Source of the DNA: Clostridia bacterium
GTDB taxonomy: Bacteria; Bacillota; DSM-521; Neomoorellales; SLTJ01
Length of the DNA stretch: 40,941 bases
Assembly (NCBI GenBank): GCA_004347685.1
Contig: SLTJ01000015.1
Location: forward strand, 1-40,941
Direction: 5' to 3'
This document shows positions 1,757-13,926 of this stretch, piece by piece. Position numbers and translations under genes: made by a program. The notes beneath the pieces were generated by a model, which was given only the letters and a program-made list of their open reading frames with translations, ran no database searches and was not told where the DNA came from. Each line of letters begins with the position of its first letter. Position 1 is the stretch's first letter.

Positions 1757-2533
1757 TTATCCCAGCCCATGTTCGCGGGCATAGCGTACCAGGTCGGAAC
1801 GCCGCTTGAGGCCGGTTTTTTCCCGGATATGGGCCTTGTGGGTTTCTACGGTCTTAATGCTGATGAACAGGGTGGCGGCGATTTCTTGGTTGCTGAGGCC
1901 CCGGGCCACGAGCCTGAGCACTTCCTTTTCCCTCTCGCTTAGGGGTGCTTCTTCGCTTCCCTTTGGTCCCCGAATGGTTTGGGCTGGGGAATGGTGCAGG
2001 GCCTGTTTTACCAAGTAACGGGTCAGGGAAGGGTCAACATATGCCTTTCCCTGGCTCACCGCAGTTATGGCGGTGAGGAGTTCCGCATCGGCCGCCTTTT
2101 TCAGGACGTACCCGTCGCATCCCGCGGCCAGGGCCTGGCGCAGGTAGCCCTCGTCGTCGTACATGGTTAAGACCAGGATCTTGCTCCGGGGGCTGCTTTC
2201 TTTGATGGCGCAAATCAAGTCCAGGCTGCTCCCGTCTTCGAGATGAATGTCAAGAATAACTATGTCGGGTTGCAGGGCGCGGACTTGAGCTAAAGCTTCC
2301 TGCCTGGTGGCTGCCTCTCCGACTACCTGGATGTTTTCCGCCTTTTCTAGCAAAAGGCGCAGGCCACTGCGCAGCAGGGTATGGTCATCGGCCACTAGCA
2401 CGCGCAAGGCAGCGGCAGGGGCTGTCCCGGCCGGTGCCGGCCCCGAGGGTCCCGTGGCCTGGCCATCTTGGGCGGGAGGTGGTTGTGCCGGCCTGTGGCT
2501 GTGCCCTTCTGCATCAATGCATTCCGGGGCCAT
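1757..2533 (-). CDS. NarL/LuxR-family response regulator
   Basis: DNA-binding response regulator of 258 residues. A Pro/Ala-rich N-terminal extension of about 42 residues precedes a receiver domain (acidic pair D49-D50, phosphoacceptor D95 in VILDIHLEDG). A LuxR-type helix-turn-helix follows at about 190-250 (LSEREKEVLRLVARGLSNQE). The start has a clear GGAGG seven bases upstream. It lies 156 bases downstream of the histidine kinase on the same strand and is probably its partner. NarL-type regulators bind paired heptamers, and a perfect 7-2-7 palindrome is present upstream of the divergent molybdoenzyme operon, its likely target. The unusual N-terminal extension may be disordered; a start nearer the receiver domain cannot be excluded. 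Confidence 0.9.
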   Translation of the reverse strand: MAPECIDAEGHSHRPAQPPPAQDGQATGPSGPAPAGTAPAAALRVLVADDHTLLRSGLRLLLEKAENIQVVGEAATRQEALAQVRALQPDIVILDIHLEDGSSLDLICAIKESSPRSKILVLTMYDDEGYLRQALAAGCDGYVLKKAADAELLTAITAVSQGKAYVDPSLTRYLVKQALHHSPAQTIRGPKGSEEAPLSEREKEVLRLVARGLSNQEIAATLFISIKTVETHKAHIREKTGLKRRSDLVRYAREHGLG

Positions 2534-2689
2534 GCTTATTCCTCCATTCTATCCTCGAGATTGATTTGCCGAGGGACTTCCAGTCCACGGGTCAGGTAAT
2601 GCGACCCATCATAACGCCACCGTTTAGCAGCACTCATAGCCATCCGGTTAACTATTCTACCTCTACTCTCTAACCTCCGACCTCCAATT

Positions 2690-4105
2690 TTACGCTAGGG
2701 GCACGCGCAGGTAGACGGTGGTTCCTGCCCCGGGAGCTGATTCGATTTGCAGGGTCCCGCCCACCAGCTCGGCCCGTTCCTGCATGCCCGCCAGCCCCAG
2801 GGCCGCGTCCGGGCCCGCCTCCACGGTTCGTTCCACCTCAAACCCTATCCCGTCATCCTCAATAATGGCCAGCAACTGGTCCTCCCTTTTTTCCAGCACC
2901 ACGCTGATGTTTTCGGCCCGGGCGTGGCGGGCTGCGTTATTTAAGGCTTCCTGGATAATACGGTAGGCGATTATCTCAATTTCACCCGGCAGGCGGCCGT
3001 CCAGCCCGGATATGTGCCACCCGATCTCTTTCCCCCATTGGCGGGAACAATCCTGGACGTAACGTTCCACTGCCGCTCCCAGGCCCAGGTCGTCCAGGGC
3101 ACTGGGGCGGAGGCGATAGGAGAGGGCCTTTATTTCCTCCATGGCCCGGTAGGCGGTGGCCTTCAGCGCAGCTATCCGGCGCGCCGCTTCCTCTGACTCA
3201 GAGCCGGTAGCCAGAGAACTTAACCCCAGGTTTAGGGTGGTGAGGGCCTGGGCCGTCTGGTCGTGGAGTTCCCGGGCCACCCGCTTGCGTTCTTCCTCCT
3301 GGGCCGTAATTACCTTTTGCAGCAGGTGGGTGCGGACTTCGGCCAGGCGCTGTTTTTCCGCATCGGCCTGCTGGAGGCTGTCCAGCATGGAGTTAAAGGC
3401 CGCCCCCAGGCGGCCGAATTCGTCCCGCAGCCAGTCCAGGGGCACGCGCCAGTGGAGCTCACCGCCGGCGATCTTTTCTGTAGCCAGCACCAGTTCCTGC
3501 AGGGGCCGGGTGAGCATGTTGGCCAGGGCATAGGCCATACTCACTCCCAGGGCCGAGACAAGCAACGTTATCAGCCACAGGCGGCGCTTCAGGGAGGCCA
3601 CAGCGTGATCCAACCTGGCCTCTGAGAGTCCCAGGTGCAGGACACCGCCGTCACCCTCCAGGATCGGATATGCGATGTCGTGGATTATCCCTTCCTCGCT
3701 GCGAAAGGTCCTTAAGCTGTAAGGCTGCCCTGGAGACCAGGGGTTAAATGAAAGGAGCCCTTTAGGCAGGCCATCAGCAAAGGTATCTACCAGGAGCCTT
3801 CCCCGGGCGTCGGTTACGAATACGTATCGCAGGTCCTCGTTATTTTTCTTCGCATCAGCTATCAGCTCATGCAGGGCATAAATGTTGGCGGTCAAGATCA
3901 GACCCTCGCTGCGCGCCGCCACGTAGGCGGCCAGGGAATAACCACCACTAATGAGGTTGGCCCGCATGGTCCCGGCATAGATAGCCTGCGCCTGCCAGAT
4001 CAGGCAACTGGCCAGAAGGAACACCAGGGCCAGGGCTATGCCCATGATTTTCGCCTTCACGCCCGCCAGGTTAAACAGAAGCCTTAGCCATTGCCGCCGC
4101 TTCAT
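2690..4105 (-). CDS. Membrane sensor histidine kinase (HAMP, HisKA_3)
   Basis: Sensor kinase of 471 residues in the NarX/DegS class. Transmembrane helices at about 19-42 and 176-198 flank an extracytoplasmic sensor region of about 130 residues. HAMP follows at about 198-250, then a HisKA_3 dimerisation domain with phosphoacceptor H281 in ARELHDQTAQALT. The HATPase_c domain shows NAARHARAE, DDGIGF and GLAGMQERAELVGG. The start codon overlaps the stop of the upstream PhnD-like lipoprotein gene by four bases (ATGA), so the two are translationally coupled. This supports a three-part system in which the lipoprotein binds ligand and touches the kinase sensor domain. The partner regulator is the next gene downstream. 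Confidence 0.92.
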   Translation of the reverse strand: MKRRQWLRLLFNLAGVKAKIMGIALALVFLLASCLIWQAQAIYAGTMRANLISGGYSLAAYVAARSEGLILTANIYALHELIADAKKNNEDLRYVFVTDARGRLLVDTFADGLPKGLLSFNPWSPGQPYSLRTFRSEEGIIHDIAYPILEGDGGVLHLGLSEARLDHAVASLKRRLWLITLLVSALGVSMAYALANMLTRPLQELVLATEKIAGGELHWRVPLDWLRDEFGRLGAAFNSMLDSLQQADAEKQRLAEVRTHLLQKVITAQEEERKRVARELHDQTAQALTTLNLGLSSLATGSESEEAARRIAALKATAYRAMEEIKALSYRLRPSALDDLGLGAAVERYVQDCSRQWGKEIGWHISGLDGRLPGEIEIIAYRIIQEALNNAARHARAENISVVLEKREDQLLAIIEDDGIGFEVERTVEAGPDAALGLAGMQERAELVGGTLQIESAPGAGTTVYLRVPLA

Positions 4106-5046
4106 TTTCCCACCAACATTCCTAAGGCCCGCACCGAAGCGTAATCATCGTCGGTAGCCGGCTGGTACCGGTCAATACCCATATTTTGCAGGATCGCCTT
4201 TCCCCGGCTGTTTTCGTGCAGGGTGAGGAAGAAATCGCGCAGCCGGGTTTCCAAGGCTTCATTCAGTCCAGGCCGCACAATTACCGGTGGGGCGGAAAAG
4301 TCGGGGGAATGCTGGATGACGCGTATGTGGCGTTGCAGCTCCGGGTCCCGAGCCATCATTTCGTCCAGAACCTGGCTTTCTACCGAGGCCCCGTCCACAA
4401 TGCCGTCGCGCACGGCCCGGACCGAATTATCGTGGCTGTAGGTGAAGATGTGGGAGGCGAAGAAATCTTCCGGCCGGGTTTCTTGCAGTTTGAGCAGGGT
4501 CAGGGGGTAGAGGTAGCCGGTGGTAGACAGGGGGTCGGTAAAGGCAAAGCGCTTCCCCTTAAAGTCGCTGAAATCATTAACGCCGCTATCCTTCCGGGTG
4601 ATGATGTAGGCCTGATACGTGGTAGCCCCGTCTATTTCAGGAACAGCTAGGAGCCTGGCCCCGAATTCGTCGTGGGCGCGCACATAGGCATAGGTGCACA
4701 CAAAGGCCAGGTCCACGGCGCCGGTGCGCAGCAGTTCGTTGGTTTCAGCATAGGTGTTGCGTTGCACCATCTCCACCGGCTGCCCCAGGTATTCCGCAAG
4801 GAAATCCAGGAGTTCCTTGTAGTAGCGCAAGCTTTCCCTGGTTGAGGTCATGGAGGCCACCGATACCCGCAGCGGCTCGACCCCGGTGTGTCTACTGTCC
4901 GGCGAAACAGTTGCGGCCTCGCGCTCATGAAAGGAGATAAAGGGCAGTTGCTCACCATTAGCGCGGCACCCGGAAAGGAGCAAAGACCAGCCAAGGGCGC
5001 CCAGGCTAAGGAAGATCCAGCATAGATGTTTTCTCCCTTTTATCAC
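4102..5046 (-). CDS. PhnD-like substrate-binding lipoprotein (sensor component)
   Basis: Extracytoplasmic solute-binding lipoprotein of 314 residues, PhnD family (phosphate/phosphite/phosphonate-binding type). A signal peptide ends in a lipobox LLSGC with lipidated C27. The binding fold begins near VEPLRVSVASMTSTRE and includes DLAFVCTYAYVRAHDEFG (C117) and FAFTDPLSTTGYLYP. No ABC permease or ATPase is nearby. Coupling to a histidine kinase suggests sensing rather than transport, as known for AioX/ArrX (arsenic oxyanions) and the PhnD-like domain of TtrS (tetrathionate). The ligand is not determined; C117 is shared by many PhnD-like proteins, so it does not prove arsenite binding. GTG at 5046 is preferred because AAGGGGGA lies seven bases upstream; TTG at 5049 is adjacent. 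Confidence 0.88.
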   Translation of the reverse strand: MIKGRKHLCWIFLSLGALGWSLLLSGCRANGEQLPFISFHEREAATVSPDSRHTGVEPLRVSVASMTSTRESLRYYKELLDFLAEYLGQPVEMVQRNTYAETNELLRTGAVDLAFVCTYAYVRAHDEFGARLLAVPEIDGATTYQAYIITRKDSGVNDFSDFKGKRFAFTDPLSTTGYLYPLTLLKLQETRPEDFFASHIFTYSHDNSVRAVRDGIVDGASVESQVLDEMMARDPELQRHIRVIQHSPDFSAPPVIVRPGLNEALETRLRDFFLTLHENSRGKAILQNMGIDRYQPATDDDYASVRALGMLVGK

Positions 5047-5475
5047 CAATTCGTCCCCCTTCGGCCAGGTCTGTAAGCAGATTTCGCTTCTTGCGACCAG
5101 TTTCCTTCTTGCACCCTCAAAATGGGGTTCAATGCTCGTGGGAACTGGTTCGAGTCCCTAGGTTGAAATCCAGGCCCCCGCCCTCGCTGTTTTCATCTTT
5201 CTGTTGGTGTCGTCTCAGTGGCATGAAGGCTTTCTTCGGAATTCGGGGTACATGGCCGCGAAGCACAGAAGCTTGGGTAAAAGGCGGCGTTAAGCATAGC
5301 CTGTTTCTTGCTAGCTCAGGGTTTTTCCCTGATATCAGGGATTTACCAGTAAGGGCGAGTGTCCTAAAAATCCTGGCTTCTAACGGATGTTTTTGGCCCC
5401 AGAAATCCTCTAGGCTAGAAGGTGAAATACTCGCTGTAAATTTTGTTACACAAGGAACATACAGGAGGGAAGAAC
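5047..5475. other. Divergent control region, 429 bases without a gene
   Basis: This gap separates the divergent sensor and molybdoenzyme operons and must hold promoters for both. An open frame across it on the plus strand resembles nothing and has atypical composition, so it is not called. The clear elements are the palindrome at 5326-5341 and the Shine-Dalgarno AGGAGGG at 5463-5469. A possible weak promoter (TTGGCC, 17 bases, TAGAAG) lies around 5394-5422, but I do not rely on it. Confidence 0.6.
5326..5341. promoter_or_regulatory. Perfect 7-2-7 palindrome, candidate NarL-type operator
   Basis: TCCCTGATATCAGGGA is a perfect 16-base palindrome that can be read as inverted heptamers TCCCTGA and TCAGGGA separated by two bases. 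NarL-family regulators typically bind inverted heptamers in this 7-2-7 spacing. It lies about 135 bases before the molybdoenzyme start, and a NarL-type regulator is encoded next door. The sequence is not the E. coli NarL consensus, so the link is inference. Confidence 0.5.
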
Positions 5476-8028
5476 ATGAGGGTATCCCGACGCACCTTCG
5501 TTAAGGGTTCGGCAGCGGCGGTCGGTGGCCTGGCCTTGAGCCAGTACCTCAACGGCTTTGAGCTCCTGAAGCCACGCGGAGCCCAGGCCGCGCCTGCGGT
5601 GGCCGAGGACTGGTTTCCCAGCGCCTGCTGGATCGGCAAGCAGGATTGTGGTCTTTTGGCCCGGCGCATCAACGGCCGGGTGGTGAAGCTCGAAGGCCAC
5701 CCTGACGACCCGAGAAACCGCGGCCGGCTGTGCCCCAAGGGCCAAGCCCAGATTATGGCCCTTTACGACTACAACCGGGCAAAAACCCCCCTCATCCGGA
5801 CCAACGAAAAAGGGATAGCGGGTAAATGGCGTCCCGCCTCCTGGGATGAAGCCCTAGCCCTGGCCGGCGAAAAGATCAAAGAAGCGCGGGCCAGAAATCC
5901 GGAGCTGGTGGCCTGGCAGAAGGGAAGGAGCAAGGCCGGAAGCTTTTACGACGAGGCCTTTGTCAAGGCCGCCGGCGCCCTCAAGCTCCACCACGGCGCC
6001 TTCTGTTCTGACGCCGGGTACCGGGCGGGGGAGTATACCGTGGGTCCCAGCGGCGTTCTCCACCCCGATTTCCGCCACACTAAGTACGTGCTGGCCTGGG
6101 GCTGGAACATCACCAATTCCGGGGGAAATAAGCTCTGCTGGATTACCTATCCCAGGGAGCTAATTATGGCCAAGGAGCGGGGCATGAAGGTGGTGGCCAT
6201 TGACCCGCGGTTGCGGGGAGCCGGGCCCTTTGCCGACGAGTGGCTGCCCATCAGGCCGGGCACTGATCTCGCCCTGGCTCTCGCCCTGGCCAACGCCCTG
6301 GTGGGCGAAGATCGCATTGACCGGGAGTTCCTCAAGAAATACACTAACGCCCCCTTCCTGGTCAAAGACGACGGTTTCTTCCTCAGGATTGACGGTAAGG
6401 AGCAGGTTTGGGACGCCGCTTCGGGATCGGCCAAACCGTTTGACGCCGCCGGTATAGATCCGGCCCTGGAAGGCGAATTTACCGTTGGAGAGGCAAAGGT
6501 CAAGACGGCCTTCCAGGTGTTCCGCGAGCACCTCGCCCAGTATACTCCGGAGTGGGCCGCCGGGGTGTGCGGCGTGCCGGCGGAAAAGATACGGAAGGTG
6601 GCCAGGGAACTGGGCGAAAACGCGGCCATCGGCCAGACCATCGTTGTAGATGGGGTGGAGCTCCCCTACCGGCCGGTAGCCATCCACGCCTATCATGTGT
6701 CCCAGCAGGAACTCGGCTTCCAGGCGGTGCGAGCCATGATCCTGCTCATGATGCTCCTGGGCGCCGTGGAGGCCGTGGGCGGCCAGCGGGTAGACTTTAC
6801 CTGGAAACCGCATGAAAACTTTGAGAAGCTGGACCAGGCCAAGGTCAAGGATCCACCCTACAACATTTACCTGAAGGACAGCAAGTTCTACCCCATTAAC
6901 AGCAATAACTCCTCGGTGGCGGCCAGGGTGATGCTGGAGCCGGAAAAATACGGCGTAACTACCATCCCCGAAGTGCTGATCATCCATATGACCAACCCGC
7001 TATTGGCTTTTGGGGATCAGGAGGCCCTTATCAAGGCCTATAAGAAGTTTAAGTTCGTGGTGGCCATTGACACCTGGCTTAGCGAGACGGCAGACTACTT
7101 TGCCGATGTCGTGCTGCCGGCAGCCGCCATGGAGAAGTACGAGGGCCCGATCGGGTTAGCCACCGGGTATGAAGATGGGAAAGCCCTTCGGTTGCCGCTT
7201 ATGGAGCCCTTGTTCCAGTCCAAGGGCGAAATAGACATTTATCTGGACCTCTGCGAGAAGGCCGGGATTCTGTACGGTAAAGATGGTTACCTTGACCAGC
7301 TCAACAAGGCCCTAAAGCTCAAGGATGAATACAAGCTGGACGCAAATACCCGACCAGCAGTGCGGGATATCTTCGACCGTTGGGCCAAGTCCGAGGGCTT
7401 TGCCGAGGGCATTCGCTATTTCGAGGAAAAAGGGGTAAAGGTGAGCCAGGTCCCGGCAAGCAAGCGCTACGGCCTGGCGGCAAGCCCGCCCTTCAGCGGC
7501 AAGCGCCTGCGCCTCTACGGGGAATCCCTGTTGCGACTGCAGGAGGAAATGAAGGGGAAAAAGGTGGAGCAGATATACTGGCAAGATTACACGCCGCTGC
7601 CGGTATGGCGGAAACCCACCATGGACCTGTCCGGGCCCGAGTATGACCTTTACCTGATCAGCTTTAAGAAAATCGAGTACAAGCAATCCAGGGCGCACGT
7701 TCCGCTCTTGATTGAGCTGGCTCCGGAGCAGTATGTGGAGATCAACCCCCAGGCGGCCGGGGCCAGGGGCATCAAGGATGGCGAGGAAGTCTACGTGGAA
7801 TCCCACAATGCCGTCACTGGGGAGACCAGGAGGGTTAGGGTCAAGGCCAGGTACGTGGAAGGTATCAGGCCGGACACCGTTGGACTCTCTCACCATTACG
7901 GGCTGTGGACTAACCCCTGGGCCAAGGATCGCGGTCCGACTCCCAATACGCTCTTCTTCAGCACCGCAGGATATGTAACCAATACTGCCGATCAGTCCTT
8001 CCATGTGAAGGTACGGGTTTACAAGTAG
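5476..8028 (+). CDS. Tat-exported molybdopterin oxidoreductase, catalytic subunit
   Basis: Catalytic subunit of a DMSO-reductase-superfamily enzyme, 850 residues, nearest in layout to the ArrA/TtrA/PsrA group. The N-terminus has a twin-arginine signal (SRRTFVKG) and an AQA-type cleavage region, so it acts outside the membrane. The N-terminal Fe-S motif is C51-x2-G54-x3-C58-x27-C86: spacing matches CxxCxxxCx27C but the second cysteine is glycine. A likely molybdenum ligand is C177 in HGAFCSDAGYRAG, with histidine four residues before it. The C-terminal molybdopterin dinucleotide-binding domain is present (about 720-850). ATG at 5476 follows AGGAGGG at ideal spacing; the upstream TTG at 5443 is rejected because it would displace the Tat signal. 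Seventeen bases precede the Fe-S subunit gene. The substrate (arsenic, sulfur, selenium or other oxyanion) is not resolved. Confidence 0.9.
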   Translation: MRVSRRTFVKGSAAAVGGLALSQYLNGFELLKPRGAQAAPAVAEDWFPSACWIGKQDCGLLARRINGRVVKLEGHPDDPRNRGRLCPKGQAQIMALYDYNRAKTPLIRTNEKGIAGKWRPASWDEALALAGEKIKEARARNPELVAWQKGRSKAGSFYDEAFVKAAGALKLHHGAFCSDAGYRAGEYTVGPSGVLHPDFRHTKYVLAWGWNITNSGGNKLCWITYPRELIMAKERGMKVVAIDPRLRGAGPFADEWLPIRPGTDLALALALANALVGEDRIDREFLKKYTNAPFLVKDDGFFLRIDGKEQVWDAASGSAKPFDAAGIDPALEGEFTVGEAKVKTAFQVFREHLAQYTPEWAAGVCGVPAEKIRKVARELGENAAIGQTIVVDGVELPYRPVAIHAYHVSQQELGFQAVRAMILLMMLLGAVEAVGGQRVDFTWKPHENFEKLDQAKVKDPPYNIYLKDSKFYPINSNNSSVAARVMLEPEKYGVTTIPEVLIIHMTNPLLAFGDQEALIKAYKKFKFVVAIDTWLSETADYFADVVLPAAAMEKYEGPIGLATGYEDGKALRLPLMEPLFQSKGEIDIYLDLCEKAGILYGKDGYLDQLNKALKLKDEYKLDANTRPAVRDIFDRWAKSEGFAEGIRYFEEKGVKVSQVPASKRYGLAASPPFSGKRLRLYGESLLRLQEEMKGKKVEQIYWQDYTPLPVWRKPTMDLSGPEYDLYLISFKKIEYKQSRAHVPLLIELAPEQYVEINPQAAGARGIKDGEEVYVESHNAVTGETRRVRVKARYVEGIRPDTVGLSHHYGLWTNPWAKDRGPTPNTLFFSTAGYVTNTADQSFHVKVRVYK

Positions 8029-8044: not shown

Positions 8045-8785
8045 ATGGCCAGGTACGGAATGGTTATTGACTTGGATCGCTGCATGGGGTGTCGGGCATG
8101 TATGGAGGCCTGCAAGATAGAGAATAACACGCCCCAAGGCATCTTCTGGATGCGGGTGTTCCGCTTTGAAGAGGGGGAGTATCCTGACGTCAGGTACAGG
8201 TTTTTGCCCCGCCCCTGCATGCACTGCGATAATCCCCCCTGCACCAAGGTATGCCCCACAGGGGCCCGCTACAAGCGGGAAGACGGCCTAGTGGCCACAG
8301 ACTGGGAGAAATGTATCGGTACCAGGTATTGCCACGCGGCCTGCCCTTATGGGGCCAACTATTTCAATTGGAAGGAACCGCAAAAAAACTACTATCTGGA
8401 CTGGTCAGCGGCGCCTGAGCTGGCGTCTGTAACCGGGGGCATGGTGCCTCCTTATAAGAATCCGGATCTGGAGGTGCCGTACGGGAAGGAAGGGCGGCGG
8501 ATCGCCGGCGGCGGCCACCGGTTGCGGGTGATTGAAAAGTGCACCTTCTGCGTGCACCGGGTAGAGAAAGGAATCCTGCCTGCCTGCGCGGCCAACTGCC
8601 CGGTCGCGGCCATCCACTTTGGCGACCTGGACGATCCGGAGAGTGAGGTTGCTAAGCTCTTGCGCGAGAGGAATCCACTCCGGCTTCGCGAGGAGTTCGG
8701 CACCAGCCCGAAGGTCTATTACCTGAGCAAATCTGGCCCGCCGACGGCCAAATCCCGCGAGATCGAAAAGGTGGGAGCGCGATGA
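8045..8785 (+). CDS. Four-cluster Fe-S electron-transfer subunit (NrfC/PsrB/TtrB type)
   Basis: Electron-transfer subunit of 246 residues that should pair with the upstream molybdoenzyme and be carried across the membrane with it, since it has no signal peptide of its own. Cysteine groups in order: CMGCRACMEAC (13-23), CMHCDNPPCTKVC (58-70), CIGTRYCHAAC (about 89-99) and a split group CTFC plus CAANC near 175-195. Threonine replaces the second cysteine of the third group, a known variant (CIGTRYC) in this family. AGGAGGTGAGG lies before the ATG. Its stop overlaps the start of the next gene (ATGA), indicating translational coupling to the cytochrome fusion. Confidence 0.92.
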   Translation: MARYGMVIDLDRCMGCRACMEACKIENNTPQGIFWMRVFRFEEGEYPDVRYRFLPRPCMHCDNPPCTKVCPTGARYKREDGLVATDWEKCIGTRYCHAACPYGANYFNWKEPQKNYYLDWSAAPELASVTGGMVPPYKNPDLEVPYGKEGRRIAGGGHRLRVIEKCTFCVHRVEKGILPACAANCPVAAIHFGDLDDPESEVAKLLRERNPLRLREEFGTSPKVYYLSKSGPPTAKSREIEKVGAR

Positions 8786-9549
8786 AGCAAGAAAAGAAAG
8801 CGTACCAGACGGTTGGCCGTGGCCGGCACGGCCGGCGGGAACCGGTGGCCAGCCAGCGCTGGCTGGGCTGGAGTGCCATGGTGCTGGCAGCCTTGTTAGT
8901 ATTCAGTTTGCTGGCTGGTGCGGCCCTGGCTGCCACCAGCGAAGTAAGGTTTGCCGTCGGGAAGAAGGGATTTGCCGTTGGCGGGCAGAATATGAGTACG
9001 GAGGCTGCGGCCTTCGTCAAGGATGGCCGGGCCTACGTTCCCGTTCGTGGCCTGGCCCAGGCCCTGGGACTGGCGGTAGGCTGGGACGGGATCAAGAAAA
9101 AGGTAACCGTAACCAAAGGTGAGGTTAAAGTAGAACTCGTCATTGGCAACAAGGAGATTGTCATAAACGGTAGGAGCCAACGCCTTGGTGCAGCTCCGGT
9201 GATCCGGGCCGGGCGGGCGTACGTGCCAGCCAGGGAGATAGCCGAATCCTTAGGGTATCAAGCGAGATGGGACGCAGCCGGGCGGGCAGTGGTTGTCATG
9301 CCCGCGGCCGGACAAGGGCCGGCGGAGGCAGCCCAGAAGTACGGCTTGAGCCTGAACCAGGCTTACCATAACCTGCATGCCCAGCAATTGGGCGTGGCCT
9401 GCACTACGTGCCATGTACAGCAGGTAACGGGCGAAATACAGGTATTCTCGGGCCAGGATGTCTCGCCGGCGGCCCCCGGGCCGGTGGACCGGAAGGCCTG
9501 CCTGGCCTGCCATACCGCAGGGCCAGGCCGGAAGCTTTACGGCCGCTAG
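8782..9549 (+). CDS. Copper amine oxidase N-like domain fused to diheme c-type cytochrome
   Basis: Exported protein of 255 residues. A basic N-terminus leads into one hydrophobic segment (about 30-52, ending AALAATS), a signal peptide or anchor. Residues about 55-175 carry two repeats of the copper amine oxidase N-terminal (stalk-like) fold, with the recurring signatures GRAYVPVRGLAQALG and GRAYVPAREIAESLG. The C-terminus has two CxxCH heme c sites, CTTCH (207-211) and CLACH (240-244), with extra histidines in YHNLHAQQ as possible distal ligands. The stalk domain alone is common in Firmicutes wall proteins and does not imply amine oxidase activity. In this operon it likely hands electrons to or from the Fe-S subunit, perhaps in place of the missing NrfD/PsrC anchor. 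That role is inference. Confidence 0.85.
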   Translation: MKQEKKAYQTVGRGRHGRREPVASQRWLGWSAMVLAALLVFSLLAGAALAATSEVRFAVGKKGFAVGGQNMSTEAAAFVKDGRAYVPVRGLAQALGLAVGWDGIKKKVTVTKGEVKVELVIGNKEIVINGRSQRLGAAPVIRAGRAYVPAREIAESLGYQARWDAAGRAVVVMPAAGQGPAEAAQKYGLSLNQAYHNLHAQQLGVACTTCHVQQVTGEIQVFSGQDVSPAAPGPVDRKACLACHTAGPGRKLYGR

Positions 9550-9650: not shown

Positions 9651-9807
9651 CCCGAACTGGTTCTTGCCTGGGGCCTTGCCTGGGTTATCTCCACTTTGCG
9701 GGGGCTACCTGGCCCCTGGCATAAAAATTGGGGATACCTAAGAGACCTTGCCTGTTGCGAAGTCGGGTGGTGTCGTAAACCGCGTGCAAGGAAGGCGTGA
9801 GAATATA

Positions 9808-10566
9808 GTGCATCTGGCAGATCTGGCCCAGTTTCGCCAGGCAGCCTACCGGTTGATAAGTTCAATGCTTATTTACCCGGAAGAGGAAAGGCTTAGGACG
9901 GTGGCGGCGGCCGCCGCCGGCCTGCTGCCCGAGAGCAGCGTTCTGGCCGAGTTTCTCTTTTATCCCCAGTGGCAGCGGCTGCTGGCCTGCCTGGCCGAGG
10001 TGGCCGGACGCCGCTCCCTGGGCGAGGACTACGTGCGCCTGTTCTGGCACGGTTCTGGTGCCGCGCCGTGTCTCCCCTACGAGTCCGTCTATGCTGATCC
10101 GAACCGCCAGGCTGCGCCCTGGATTATGGCCATGCTGGAGGACGAGTACGGCCAGGCCGGCTTGACCCTCTCGGCTTCTGTGGAGCCCCCTGACCATATT
10201 GCGGTAGAGATGGAGTTTATGGCCTATCTCTGCTGCCAGGAGGTAGAGGCTTGGAGGGAAGGGAATCTGGCGCAGGGGCTGGTGGCCATGGGGCGCCAGC
10301 TTGCCTTCCTGGACCGGCACCTCATCCGCTGGGTACCGGGGTGGGCGGTAAAGGTCATGGAGGCTGACACCAGCGGCGTTTACTTGGTGGTGGCTGAAGC
10401 GGCGCGCGTTTTCGTGCTTCATGATTGCGACCTGATTGATGTCCTCCTGCGCAGATTTAAGGGCCTTGCGAAAGCAGATCATGGCGAAACGGACTTTTCG
10501 ACTGCCGTCAGGGTTAGCGGAACAAGTGACCAAGAACTCGGGGGTGGCCAGAATGCTCCATCGTGA
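9808..10566 (+). CDS. TorD/DmsD-family molybdoenzyme chaperone
   Basis: Cytoplasmic all-helical chaperone of 252 residues. Family signatures include LPYESVYADPNRQAAPW and EPPDHIAVEMEFMAYL in the middle third. TorD-type proteins bind the Tat signal and immature form of their partner molybdoenzyme so that cofactor is loaded before export; the partner here should be the upstream catalytic subunit. GTG at 9808 is chosen because AAGGAAGG lies upstream and homology begins just after (LADLAQFRQAAYRLIS). GTG at 9784 and TTG at 9748 are alternatives. The 3' end overlaps the next gene by 14 bases. Confidence 0.88.
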   Translation: MHLADLAQFRQAAYRLISSMLIYPEEERLRTVAAAAAGLLPESSVLAEFLFYPQWQRLLACLAEVAGRRSLGEDYVRLFWHGSGAAPCLPYESVYADPNRQAAPWIMAMLEDEYGQAGLTLSASVEPPDHIAVEMEFMAYLCCQEVEAWREGNLAQGLVAMGRQLAFLDRHLIRWVPGWAVKVMEADTSGVYLVVAEAARVFVLHDCDLIDVLLRRFKGLAKADHGETDFSTAVRVSGTSDQELGGGQNAPS

Positions 10567-12277
10567 CGCAGTAGTTTCCTTTCCTGGTGACGAGGTAAGG
10601 GCCGCCATCCTTCTCTGCGACGACCTGGCGCGAGTCGGGAGGGGACTGGACCTTGCGGAGTTGCGCTCCTCCTTGGCAGGTACCCTGGCGAACATTGTGG
10701 TAGAGGTCGTGCCTGGCCTCTGCCGCGACCCGGAACAGGTGTCCTCCATCCTGGCGGACCTGGGCGCGGCCAGGTGCGTGCTCGGATTGTGTGCGGGCGA
10801 GTATCCCCAGTTCGCGTTACATGCTGGGGTGAGAAAGGTCGGCATGGACCCCTTTGGGCTAGAGATAGTGCCTCTTGGCACATGGTGCGCTGAGGTACAC
10901 GCTCGGCCCCAGGCCACAACCAAAGCTTCGGTGTTGCTGGCCGCGGCTGTGGCCAGGGCCAGGGCCTTTGCCGGGTGCGGGCCGGAATACGCACAGATTT
11001 CCTTCCTTCCCCTGGCGTTGGAGGAGGCGCGACACTCCCTGTTGACCCTGCCCCCGGTCGTATACCGGCCGGTGCCGGCCGTGCGGCAGGACCGGTGTGC
11101 CGTAGGGAGCGGGTGCCACCTCTGCGCCAGGGCTTGCCCGCGAGGCGTCATAGAAGAGGGGGAAGGGCGCCTCTTTATTGATAAGGGCCGGTGTGAGGGC
11201 TGTGGCGTCTGCCTGGTCGCTTGCCCCCAGGAGGCCGTAGACTTTCCCGGCCAATCCCTCTCCCAGTTTGAGGCCCAGCTTGCAGTTCTGCTGGATTTTG
11301 CCTCCCGCAGTGCCGAGCCGGCCGGCCTCTTGCTCACCTGCGAGAAGGCAGCCCCCGCCCTCGGCGAGCTGGCCGCCGCGGGGATTTCCTATTCGTCTTC
11401 CTGGCTGCCGGTGGTCGTCCCCTGCCTGGGCATGGTCACGCCTGGCTGGGTATTCCAGGCCTTGGCCCGGGGTGCCGGAGCAGTAGGCATGGTTGTCTGT
11501 TGCAGCCAGTGCTCCCTCGGGCAGCAGCAGGTTATCAGCGGCAGGGTGGGGTTCTGTCGCCGGCTCTTGCAGCAGCTCGGCCTGCCCCCCGGGCGGGTGC
11601 AGCTCGTAAGTGCCACCGGCCGCGCCAAGCTTTTAGGCCTGTTGCAACGGCCTCCACTCGGGCAGCAAACTCGGCCTCCACAGATGGCAGGAGAGGTGCA
11701 ACTCCTGGATCCGCAGGCAACTGCGCAGGCCCTTCATCATTTGGCATGCGGGTTGCCACGCCTGGCAGATGTGGAGCACGAATATTCTCCCTTTGGCGCG
11801 CTAAACTTCCGGGCCGATGGCTGTACCGGGTGCTTGGCGTGCGTTTTCTCTTGTCCGGCCGGGGCCCTGGTGGCCGAAGGTGACGGGGACAGGGTGACTA
11901 TAAAATATACAGGTTCTGCCTGTACAGGTTGCGGGATGTGTGCGGAAGCCTGCCCGGGAGGCCGGGATCTCGGAGAAACTGGCTGCGATTTAGGATCCCG
12001 AATACTTGAGGTGCAGAAGATAACAAGATGGAGCCTCTTAAACGGCGGCGCAGTGGTCCTGCGTGACCACGGGCTTCTAAGGTGCGAAGGTTGCGGTGCC
12101 GAGATAGCTCCGCTGGCCATGTTGCGCCGCCTCGAAGCCGCACTTGATGGTGGAGGTGAGGCTATACGCCTGGCCCTTCGCCGCTATTGCCCAGCCTGCC
12201 GCCCGTCCTTTGTGTGGGGAGGCGAGGCCGCCGTTCCCTGGCCTGACGAGGTGGGGACTGGCGAAGCTTACAAGTAG
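10553..12277 (+). CDS. HdrA-N / ferredoxin / FlpD(MvhD)-like multidomain Fe-S protein
   Basis: Predicted cytoplasmic electron carrier of 574 residues with no signal or membrane segment. Residues about 10-150 resemble the N-terminal region of HdrA (CRDPEQVSSILADLGAARCV, then a conserved CAGEYPQF step and GMDPFGLEIVPLG), but the FAD domain of HdrA is absent. A two-cluster ferredoxin segment follows at about 180-235 (GCHLCARACP, CEGCGVCLVACP). An FlpD/MvhD-like domain follows at about 245-385 (VVPCLGMVTPGW, VVCCSQCSLGQQQ). A second ferredoxin pair lies at about 420-475 and a C-terminal CxxC...CxxC zinc-ribbon-like tail ends the protein. ATG at 10553 has GGGGGTGG just upstream and overlaps torD by 14 bases; an upstream in-frame ATG at 10481 would overlap more. 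The layout recalls QmoB/HdrA-MvhD fusions, but its partner is unknown. Confidence 0.75.
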   Translation: MLHRDAVVSFPGDEVRAAILLCDDLARVGRGLDLAELRSSLAGTLANIVVEVVPGLCRDPEQVSSILADLGAARCVLGLCAGEYPQFALHAGVRKVGMDPFGLEIVPLGTWCAEVHARPQATTKASVLLAAAVARARAFAGCGPEYAQISFLPLALEEARHSLLTLPPVVYRPVPAVRQDRCAVGSGCHLCARACPRGVIEEGEGRLFIDKGRCEGCGVCLVACPQEAVDFPGQSLSQFEAQLAVLLDFASRSAEPAGLLLTCEKAAPALGELAAAGISYSSSWLPVVVPCLGMVTPGWVFQALARGAGAVGMVVCCSQCSLGQQQVISGRVGFCRRLLQQLGLPPGRVQLVSATGRAKLLGLLQRPPLGQQTRPPQMAGEVQLLDPQATAQALHHLACGLPRLADVEHEYSPFGALNFRADGCTGCLACVFSCPAGALVAEGDGDRVTIKYTGSACTGCGMCAEACPGGRDLGETGCDLGSRILEVQKITRWSLLNGGAVVLRDHGLLRCEGCGAEIAPLAMLRRLEAALDGGGEAIRLALRRYCPACRPSFVWGGEAAVPWPDEVGTGEAYK

Positions 12278-12412
12278 GCGCAGCGCGGGTTTGGGGAACT
12301 GCACAAAGGATTGAACTGACAGGCGGCGAAGGATGGAGTACAGGGGCGGGATCTTGATGAGGAAGCAGGAATCCTTGCGTGAAGATATTTCTCCTTAACG
12401 GGAGGTACCGGT

Positions 12413-13546
12413 GTGGATATCTTGAAAATGGTGGAGAACTTTTCTTCCCGGCTGGCCAGGATTGGGGTACAGGCGGAACGCTGTTGCCGGGTGCGCTCCC
12501 TTCTCGCCCGGTGCACCCGCTGTCTTGAAGTTTGCCCTACGGGAGGCATCTCCTGGCCGGCCGGGGAACTGCATATCGGCCGCTGCCTGGACTGCGGCCT
12601 GTGTACGGCCGTCTGCCCCACCGGGGCCCTGTGCCTGCAGGAGCCGGGGGAAGAACAAATAATCAGGCGGGTAGAGGTTCTGGCTGCAGAATATGGCGCG
12701 GCCGTCATCCTTTGCGAGCGGCAAGAATCTGCCCGTAACCTGCCCCAGGGGATGGTGGTCCCCTGCCTGGGAGCCCTGTCGCCGGATTTCCTCCTCCTGG
12801 TCCTGGCCAGAAGCCTGGCGGTGCAGTTTTATCTGGCGCCGGAAGCCTGTTCAGCCTGCCAGGTGGCCGGAGGAGGCGAGATCTTCCGCCTGCGTTTGGA
12901 GGAAATAGGGGTCGCCAACAAGCTGGCCGGGCTGTCCGCTGTGGTGGTGAATGAGGTGCGGCCGGCCGCAGGCCGGGAAAGGGGCCACGGAGGAGCAGGG
13001 GAGCAGGTCACCAACCGCCGGAAGCTTCTTACCCAGGCCTGGCAGGGCCTGCGGCAACTCCCGCTGGTCATGTTGCGAGACGCTCTGGTGGAGGAAGATG
13101 GGGCGGACGGCAAGAGAACAAAGTTGGCAGAGTTACCGGGGCAGGTACCTCCCAGGAGAAGGCTTTATCTGGAAGCGGTAAAGCACGGGGGTAACATGCC
13201 TGATCTTTACCAGCAGCCAGGGGTTCGGGGCACGTGCTTTTTCTGTCGCGCTTGCACCATTCTCTGCCCGACGGGAAGCTTGCGGCAAGTGGAGGAAGGG
13301 GATTCTGTTTCCCTGTACCTGGATACGGCGACCTGCACCGGGTGCGGGCTCTGTGCTCAGGCCTGCTTCCACCAGACCCTCCTCCTGGAAGGAGGGTGTG
13401 AAGACCCGGGCCAGGACCGGCACCTGGTACTGGTTAAAGGCTGGCAGCAAAGATGTGCTGAATGTGGCCAGGAGTTCAGCGCCAGCACCGAGAGCAGCCG
13501 GTGCCCAGGTTGTGCCGGCAAAGAGGGCGCGCTGTTTGCGGGGTAG
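12413..13546 (+). CDS. Ferredoxin/FlpD-like Fe-S protein, paralogue of the upstream gene
   Basis: Cytoplasmic protein of 377 residues repeating the C-terminal two thirds of its neighbour: ferredoxin clusters (CTRCLEVCP, CLDCGLCTAVCP) at about 30-75, an FlpD-like middle (VVPCLGALSPDF, then PEACSACQ), a second ferredoxin pair at about 265-330 (CFFCRACTILCP, CTGCGLCAQAC) and a terminal zinc ribbon (CAECGQEF...CPGC). The HdrA-like N-terminus is missing. GTG start follows GGGAGGT. The shared order of domains points to an old tandem duplication. Electron transfer during enzyme turnover or cofactor assembly is possible; nothing in the sequence decides it. Confidence 0.75.
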   Translation: MDILKMVENFSSRLARIGVQAERCCRVRSLLARCTRCLEVCPTGGISWPAGELHIGRCLDCGLCTAVCPTGALCLQEPGEEQIIRRVEVLAAEYGAAVILCERQESARNLPQGMVVPCLGALSPDFLLLVLARSLAVQFYLAPEACSACQVAGGGEIFRLRLEEIGVANKLAGLSAVVVNEVRPAAGRERGHGGAGEQVTNRRKLLTQAWQGLRQLPLVMLRDALVEEDGADGKRTKLAELPGQVPPRRRLYLEAVKHGGNMPDLYQQPGVRGTCFFCRACTILCPTGSLRQVEEGDSVSLYLDTATCTGCGLCAQACFHQTLLLEGGCEDPGQDRHLVLVKGWQQRCAECGQEFSASTESSRCPGCAGKEGALFAG

Positions 13547-13710: not shown

Positions 13711-13926
13711 GTGCCGTTTCATATTGGTCTTCCAGAGCTGGTGATTATCCTGGTCATCGCTCTGATTGTTTTTGGGGCCGGCAAGCTCCCGGGCGTGGGC
13801 CGTGCCCTGGGGCGGAGCATCCGTGAATTCAAGGAAGCATCCGGCGGCAAAATTGACGCCATCGCCACCAGTGAAGGCAAGGATGAGGTCAACTTGGCGG
13901 AAGGGCAAAAACTCGCGGCGAGATAA
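13711..13926 (+). CDS. tatA: Twin-arginine translocase subunit TatA/TatE
   Basis: Short membrane protein of 71 residues: one N-terminal hydrophobic helix (LPELVIILVIALIVFG), the hinge GAGKLPGVGRALG and an amphipathic helix (SIREFKEAS), then a charged tail. This is the TatA/E pattern. GTG start follows AAGGGGGGTGAAG. Placed at the end of the molybdoenzyme operon, it likely serves export of the Tat-signal catalytic subunit. No tatC lies in the window. Confidence 0.9.
   Translation: MPFHIGLPELVIILVIALIVFGAGKLPGVGRALGRSIREFKEASGGKIDAIATSEGKDEVNLAEGQKLAAR

Follow-up and report, generated by a model that had tools for sequence, protein, structure and literature searches.

A TorD-linked family of HdrA- and FlpD-related polyferredoxins with a candidate accessory role for Tat-exported molybdoenzymes

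The window analysed here, contig SLTJ01000015.1 of a Clostridia bacterium (assembly GCA_004347685.1; 40,941 nucleotides), contains an operon for a molybdoenzyme exported by the twin-arginine translocation (Tat) pathway. Two genes of this operon, lying directly downstream of a gene for the chaperone TorD, encode iron–sulfur (Fe–S) proteins of one polyferredoxin family related to HdrA and FlpD. The proteins, henceforth referred to as P0001 and P0002, are encoded within positions 10553–13546, and the gene coordinates given there by a first-pass annotation of the sequence were right.

10553–12277, forward strand: P0001, long-form TorD-linked HdrA/FlpD-derived polyferredoxin, 574 amino acids (aa); from the open reading frame (ORF), an HdrA2 match and the relatives L002 and L021
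12413–13546, forward strand: P0002, short-form family member without the HdrA N-terminal domain (HdrA-N), 377 aa; from the ORF, paralogue alignment and tree

P0001 starts with ATG and P0002 with GTG. The start of P0001 overlaps the torD stop (10566), which suggests translational coupling. The highest 19-residue hydropathy averages were 1.67 for P0001 and 2.02 for P0002, and inspection of the sequences by eye revealed no signal peptide; on these features both proteins look cytoplasmic, as had been proposed at first pass. The domains of P0001 are as follows.

10592–10969, forward strand: HdrA-N of P0001, aa 14–139 (phmmer and profile alignment to HdrA)
11096–11242, forward strand: Fd1 of P0001, 2[4Fe-4S]-type ferredoxin, aa 182–230 (Pfam; eight cysteines, each in 54–60 of 60 sequences)
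11333–11614, forward strand: FlpD/MvhD-like domain of P0001, aa 261–354 (PF02662 above cut-off, fold match, alignment)
11813–11962, forward strand: Fd2 of P0001, 2[4Fe-4S]-type ferredoxin, aa 421–470 (Pfam, alignment)
12083–12199, forward strand: HycF-like C-terminal cysteine quartet of P0001, CxxC-x31-CPxC (C511, C514, C546, C549; HycF match, alignment)

HdrA-N was identified by phmmer, which aligned aa 14–139 of P0001 with residues 3–132 of HdrA 5odc_A (domain i-E 6e-5), and a profile built from P0001 together with two relatives matched residues 5–130 of HdrA 9sfi_A with an i-E of 1.6e-9. The first CxC of this domain is degenerate (C22, D24) and C57 is retained. The FlpD family PF02662 scored 44.7 bits on aa 261–354 against a cut-off of 22.3, and the structure model of P0001 was matched by Foldseek to the FlpD/MvhD chains 5odh_D, 5odc_D and 8rvu_F. 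The mean pLDDT of this model is 51 overall, a low value attributed to the few relatives admissible; the model is good only at about residues 173–365 and its N-terminal fold is unusable. The canonical FlpD cysteine set (CxxC, PC, GC, xC) is incomplete in P0001, the second cysteine of CxxC being gone. NCBIfam HdrA2 matched P0001 with an E-value of 4.7e-28 and 98 bits, far below its cut-off of 1100 bits, and the match spans Fd1 and FlpD, collinear with the HdrA2 C-terminus (573–747 of 777). No FAD/Rossmann family of the thioredoxin-reductase-like kind was detected in P0001 by Pfam and NCBIfam scans, and there is no room for one between aa 139 and 182. P0001 has in common with HdrA and HdrA2 the HdrA-N domain and the Fd1–FlpD segment, whereas the window proteins lack the FAD/thioredoxin-reductase domain and carry an extra Fd2 and cysteine quartet. 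The first-pass proposals of relatedness to HdrA and FlpD, and of an HdrA-like N-terminus in P0001 without its FAD domain, were borne out by these profile searches. No HdrB or HdrC partner was found among the operon proteins scanned, the rest of the genome not having been searched.

12503–12640, forward strand: Fd1 of P0002 (Pfam)
12698–12862, forward strand: degenerate FlpD-like part of P0002 (paralogue alignment, short-form relatives)
13016–13030, forward strand: RRKLL motif inside P0002, of the RRxFF type carried by short-form linkers
13226–13372, forward strand: Fd2 of P0002 (Pfam)
13454–13513, forward strand: C-terminal cysteine quartet of P0002 (C348, C351, C364, C367)

As listed above, P0002 repeats the P0001 layout from Fd1 onward, with an eroded FlpD part and without HdrA-N. 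PF02662 gave no Pfam match in P0002, and its FlpD-like part was assigned from the P0001 alignment together with short-form relatives matched by PF02662 (G129 above the cut-off, G008 and G184 just under it). A common ferredoxin, FlpD, ferredoxin and zinc-ribbon layout had been proposed for both proteins. Both do contain Fd1, Fd2 and the C-terminal cysteine quartet; the FlpD part of P0002 is undetected by Pfam, and zinc is not assigned to the quartet that had been called a zinc ribbon.

Relatives were sought within the window's phylum, first in 61 genomes and then in 398. Two of these genomes encode full-length relatives of P0001; in each, TorD lies immediately upstream and is itself preceded by subunits of a complex iron–sulfur molybdoenzyme. 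A scan of genome contigs yielded proteobacterial relatives, and a plasmid search yielded annotated relatives including one from a haloarchaeon. A profile of 19 family sequences (A2; membership at E ≤ 1e-30) matched in 18 of the 398 genomes (about 5%) and in 24 of 200 (12%) sampled in the phylum to which a Methylobacterium record belongs, and a family member is also present on a haloarchaeal plasmid. The genome and plasmid surveys ruled out a peculiarity of the window operon. The archaeal member from Haladaptatus (L044, 6101–8846), annotated as "hydrogenase iron-sulfur subunit", adjoins TorD and a formate dehydrogenase (FDH) and retains the cysteines of both HdrA-N and FlpD.

All 19 profile members matched NCBIfam HdrA2. 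Descent from an HdrA–FlpD fusion is the simplest reading of the HdrA2 matches and of the collinear Fd1–FlpD order in P0001, and it agrees with a degenerate Rossmann stretch that, judged by eye, separates HdrA-N from Fd1 in the long forms of proteobacteria. P0001 and P0002 are homologous (E 3e-15). In a FastTree phylogeny P0001 groups with the long-form proteins and P0002 with short-form proteins from its own phylum; support is 0.92 for the long-form side and lower inside. On this tree P0001 and P0002 represent two old subfamilies of one polyferredoxin family; the pair is paralogous, as first annotated, but not in the sense of simple local paralogues, and a local tandem duplication from P0001 to P0002 was ruled out. 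Membership in HdrA or NapF was likewise ruled out by the cut-offs and missing domains.

Conservation was counted over 60 aligned family sequences. Each of the sixteen ferredoxin cysteines is retained in 54–60 of the 60, and the quartet cysteines, where aligned, in 56/58, 58/58, 51/51 and 48/48. The three FlpD cysteines behave as all-or-none, being kept together in 27/60 and lost together in 33/60. P0001 shares with FlpD/MvhD the Pfam family and the fold match, whereas the second cysteine of CxxC is lost from P0001, P0002, L002, L021 and L044 (the five compared with canonical FlpD) and the full cysteine set from over half of the family. HdrA-N is absent from all short forms and retained in most long forms. 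On our reading, HdrA-N and FlpD would serve as optional adaptors, each facing a different donor. An RRxFF motif in the linker before Fd2 is most consistent in short forms. Counted over the whole family it occurs in 37/60 sequences, where shuffled linkers give an expectation of 6.4; the excess is given as a description without a p-value because related sequences are not independent. The motif is absent from P0001 in both places searched, and the two relatives of P0001 carry it before Fd1.

Linkage to TorD was compared for family members and canonical FlpD genes of the same 18 genomes of the window's phylum. A PF02613 (TorD) gene was present within 8 kb of 14/20 family members and of 0/55 canonical FlpD genes (Fisher p = 7e-11), members of one genus not being independent in these counts; by genus, 9/12 have a linked member. 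All 14 linked members share the strand of TorD, and about 0.9% would be expected to have TorD within 8 kb at random positions. The neighbourhoods of 54 family and 20 control loci were additionally typed with local profiles, those for TorD and the molybdoenzyme being built partly from the same clusters that they typed. TorD was identified at 13/19 loci in the window's phylum, 20/25 in the phylum of the Methylobacterium record, 10/10 plasmid loci, which were picked from tblastn hits and so give no unbiased rate, and 0/20 controls. All ten plasmid loci inspected adjoin TorD and a molybdoenzyme. A Tat-like signal was present on the molybdoenzyme in 33 of the 34 loci with a recognisable linked enzyme, and genes for MoeA, MobA, MobB, FdhD or TatA/TatC lie near many family loci. 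On the controls (0/55 and 0/20), the idea that FlpD or HdrA genes in general tend to lie near TorD was rejected. Two loci without TorD carry related genes: MoaA, MoeA, MobA and TatC at L068, and FdhD and TatC at L073. At L068 (6932–13760) the short-form gene lies in a cluster that also contains a molybdate-type ABC ATPase, with TorD and a molybdoenzyme not nearby.

The conserved linkage to TorD and exported molybdoenzymes was anticipated by the first-pass annotation; its proposal of a new cytoplasmic module did not hold as stated, since the family is not confined to this operon but widespread, and present in ordinary proteobacterial FDH clusters. There the uncharacterised "4Fe-4S binding protein" of the DUF3305/DUF3306–TorD–FdhA arrangement belongs to the same family by profile and has the same cysteine core. 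Like the window pair it adjoins TorD and a Tat-exported enzyme, although that enzyme is an FDH and the window enzyme is PhsA/ArrA-like. In proteobacteria the FlpD cysteines are gone from the long forms, which often still contain the degenerate Rossmann part. Shewanella SO_4506, beside FdhT (SO_4507), is probably a member, judged by gene neighbours and annotation only; SO_4506, SO_4507, SO_4509 (FdhA) and SO_4510 (FdhB) respond together (PMC5826389). The family gene is unnamed but widely annotated under that label of "4Fe-4S binding protein", and its TorD–FDH neighbourhood was noted already as "fer4" and hypothetical ferredoxins near torD-fdh (PMC4464133). No earlier description is apparent of the HdrA/FlpD origin, the optional modules, the internal RRxFF motif or the co-occurrence of both subfamilies in a single operon. 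No paper assigning a function to the family or noting its origin was found in a literature search that covered few subscription journals and is weak evidence.

The remaining genes of the window operon were identified as follows, with TorD, the Tat-signal molybdoenzyme, the ArrB-like subunit and TatA recognised by Pfam/NCBIfam scans.

5476–8028, forward strand: PhsA/PsrA-like molybdoenzyme with the Tat signal SRRTFVKG, the presumed client (profile and PDB matches)
8045–8785, forward strand: ArrB/PsrB-like Fe–S subunit (profile matches)
8782–9549, forward strand: exported protein combining a Cu-amine-oxidase N-terminal domain with two CxxCH haem motifs
9748–10566, forward strand: TorD/DmsD-family chaperone (PF02613, E 5.8e-25; exact start uncertain)
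13711–13926, forward strand: TatA-type translocase subunit (PF02416, E 2.7e-19)

The closest PDB match of the molybdoenzyme is the Thermus thiosulfate/polysulfide reductase 2vpw. Its Fe–S motif (about 5600–5740) reads C-x6-C then C (ACWIGKQDCGLL...GRLC); Gly replaces the second cysteine of the usual C-x2-C-x3-C, so that FS0 may be a modified cluster or be missing altogether. An NrfD membrane anchor was not found adjoining the genes of the catalytic and Fe–S subunits, and its place is taken by the exported fusion at 8782–9549. Upstream, on the minus strand (1757–5049), genes for a PhnD-like binding protein, a sensor kinase and a LuxR-type regulator run divergently from the operon; their arrangement resembles the substrate-sensing systems of respiratory oxyanion operons. 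Nearly the same gene order as in the window was observed on a Rhodobacter xanthinilyticus plasmid (L038, 1509–9900: cytochrome c, molybdoenzyme, Fe–S protein, TorD, short form, sensor kinase, regulator), where the enzyme is distant.

Three known systems offer parallels for a maturation role. Like the family, NapF is a polyferredoxin located in the cytoplasm and encoded in the operon of a Tat molybdoenzyme. It too has a double-arginine motif, SRRGIL before its ferredoxins as compared with RRxFF before Fd2 in the family short forms. A mutant study reportedly found the NapF motif not to be essential. NapF differs in being related at the ferredoxin repeats only, in having NapD rather than TorD as its partner, and in lacking FlpD, HdrA-N and the cysteine quartet. 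It contains four [4Fe-4S] clusters and is required for assembly of the NapA Fe–S cluster in Rhodobacter (PMC10609526). Family Fd2 and quartet matched HycF 7z0s_F at 6e-19, HycF sharing the ferredoxin plus the CxxC–CPxC quartet, and its site is tentatively assigned iron. In HycF the quartet is close to where the subunit contacts FdhF, itself a molybdenum FDH, and redox-dependent control of FdhF binding has been suggested for it (PMC9474812); HycF differs as a subunit of a membrane-bound complex. The ferredoxin-like HydN and YsaA interact with FDH-H and are required for its full dye-linked activity (PMC6004506). The clients of HycF and HydN remain cytoplasmic, unlike the exported enzymes of the family.

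Judged by the linkage to TorD and Tat-signal enzymes and by the conserved cysteines, and by analogy with NapF, HydN/YsaA and HycF, with the RRxFF motif as a further parallel, P0001 and P0002 are probably cytoplasmic NapF-like accessory proteins that act with TorD on the molybdoenzyme before Tat export. An HdrA2-type ancestor, HdrA fused to FlpD, would have lost its flavin domain to give the TorD-linked polyferredoxins. The core of two bicluster ferredoxins and a HycF-like quartet would dock on the catalytic subunit in the cytoplasm together with TorD, and would supply or stabilise the enzyme Fe–S cluster, or give electrons to complete or check cofactors, after which the enzyme would be exported. 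A Tat client presumably crosses the membrane already folded and carrying its cofactors, so that only before export could a cytoplasmic partner act on it. Client binding, the pre-export timing and the kind of help, cluster delivery or electrons, are inferred. Several observations weigh on the other side. No TorD gene lies within 8 kb of six of the 20 members sampled in the window's phylum, G084 and G184 have a family member and no detectable TorD at all, and several f3-family genomes carry the gene pair with TorD and no profile-recognised molybdoenzyme nearby. The NapF homology is at ferredoxin level only (TIGR00402, 43 bits against a cut-off of 102.2), and retention of HdrA-N in most long forms suggests electron transfer over mere cluster delivery.

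Electron transfer is central to an alternative that we consider rather unlikely, in which the proteins form a cytoplasmic coupling module. Low-potential electrons, derived from ferredoxin, Hdr or hydrogenase, would be fed into, or drawn from, the respiratory chain that the exported enzyme belongs to, for instance through a partner in the membrane. In its favour, the HdrA-N, FlpD and ferredoxin domains all serve electron transfer, and four canonical FlpD genes are present in the genome. However, the linked enzymes are nearly always Tat-signalled and hence across the membrane, no family-specific membrane partner was found, and none of the 55 canonical FlpD genes lies near TorD. Absence of the FAD domain and loss of the FlpD cysteines in 33/60 members also disfavour a bifurcation-type role. 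Of the two roles raised at first pass, coupling to low-potential carriers and cofactor loading, the second, read as loading or maturation of the enzyme, is the likelier. A regulatory protein reporting cytoplasmic redox state or Fe–S supply to TorD, and thereby gating export, would fit the nearly invariant quartet, given the redox control of FdhF binding suggested for HycF (PMC9474812), and the resemblance of the RRxFF motif to a Tat signal; with no DNA-binding or signalling domain found, and with four predicted [4Fe-4S] sites exceeding a sensor's need, this appears less probable again. That the proteins are relics or passengers, linked by operon history without a maturation role, is very improbable: the HdrA-N cysteines of P0001 are degenerate and the FlpD part of P0002 is eroded, but the linkage recurs across phyla and domains, and the sixteen ferredoxin cysteines and the quartet are nearly invariant across very diverged sequences.

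A more specific form of the accessory role, offered here as speculation, would turn a flavin-stripped HdrA–FlpD electron-input module into a redox-driven checkpoint. Such a protein would bind TorD or the translocase through its Tat-like internal twin-arginine motif and reductively complete or test the pair of molybdenum cofactor and [4Fe-4S] cluster before export; the donor-facing domains would be interchangeable, and the window operon would hold both versions.

How the [4Fe-4S] cluster of NapA is inserted, and how the enzyme is checked before export, are questions with few answers, and the role of NapF varies between organisms (PMC10609526). A widespread, TorD-tied family in bacteria and archaea would offer a direct way to test cluster insertion and checking of Tat-exported molybdoenzymes, and may also be relevant to the heterologous production of formate dehydrogenases.

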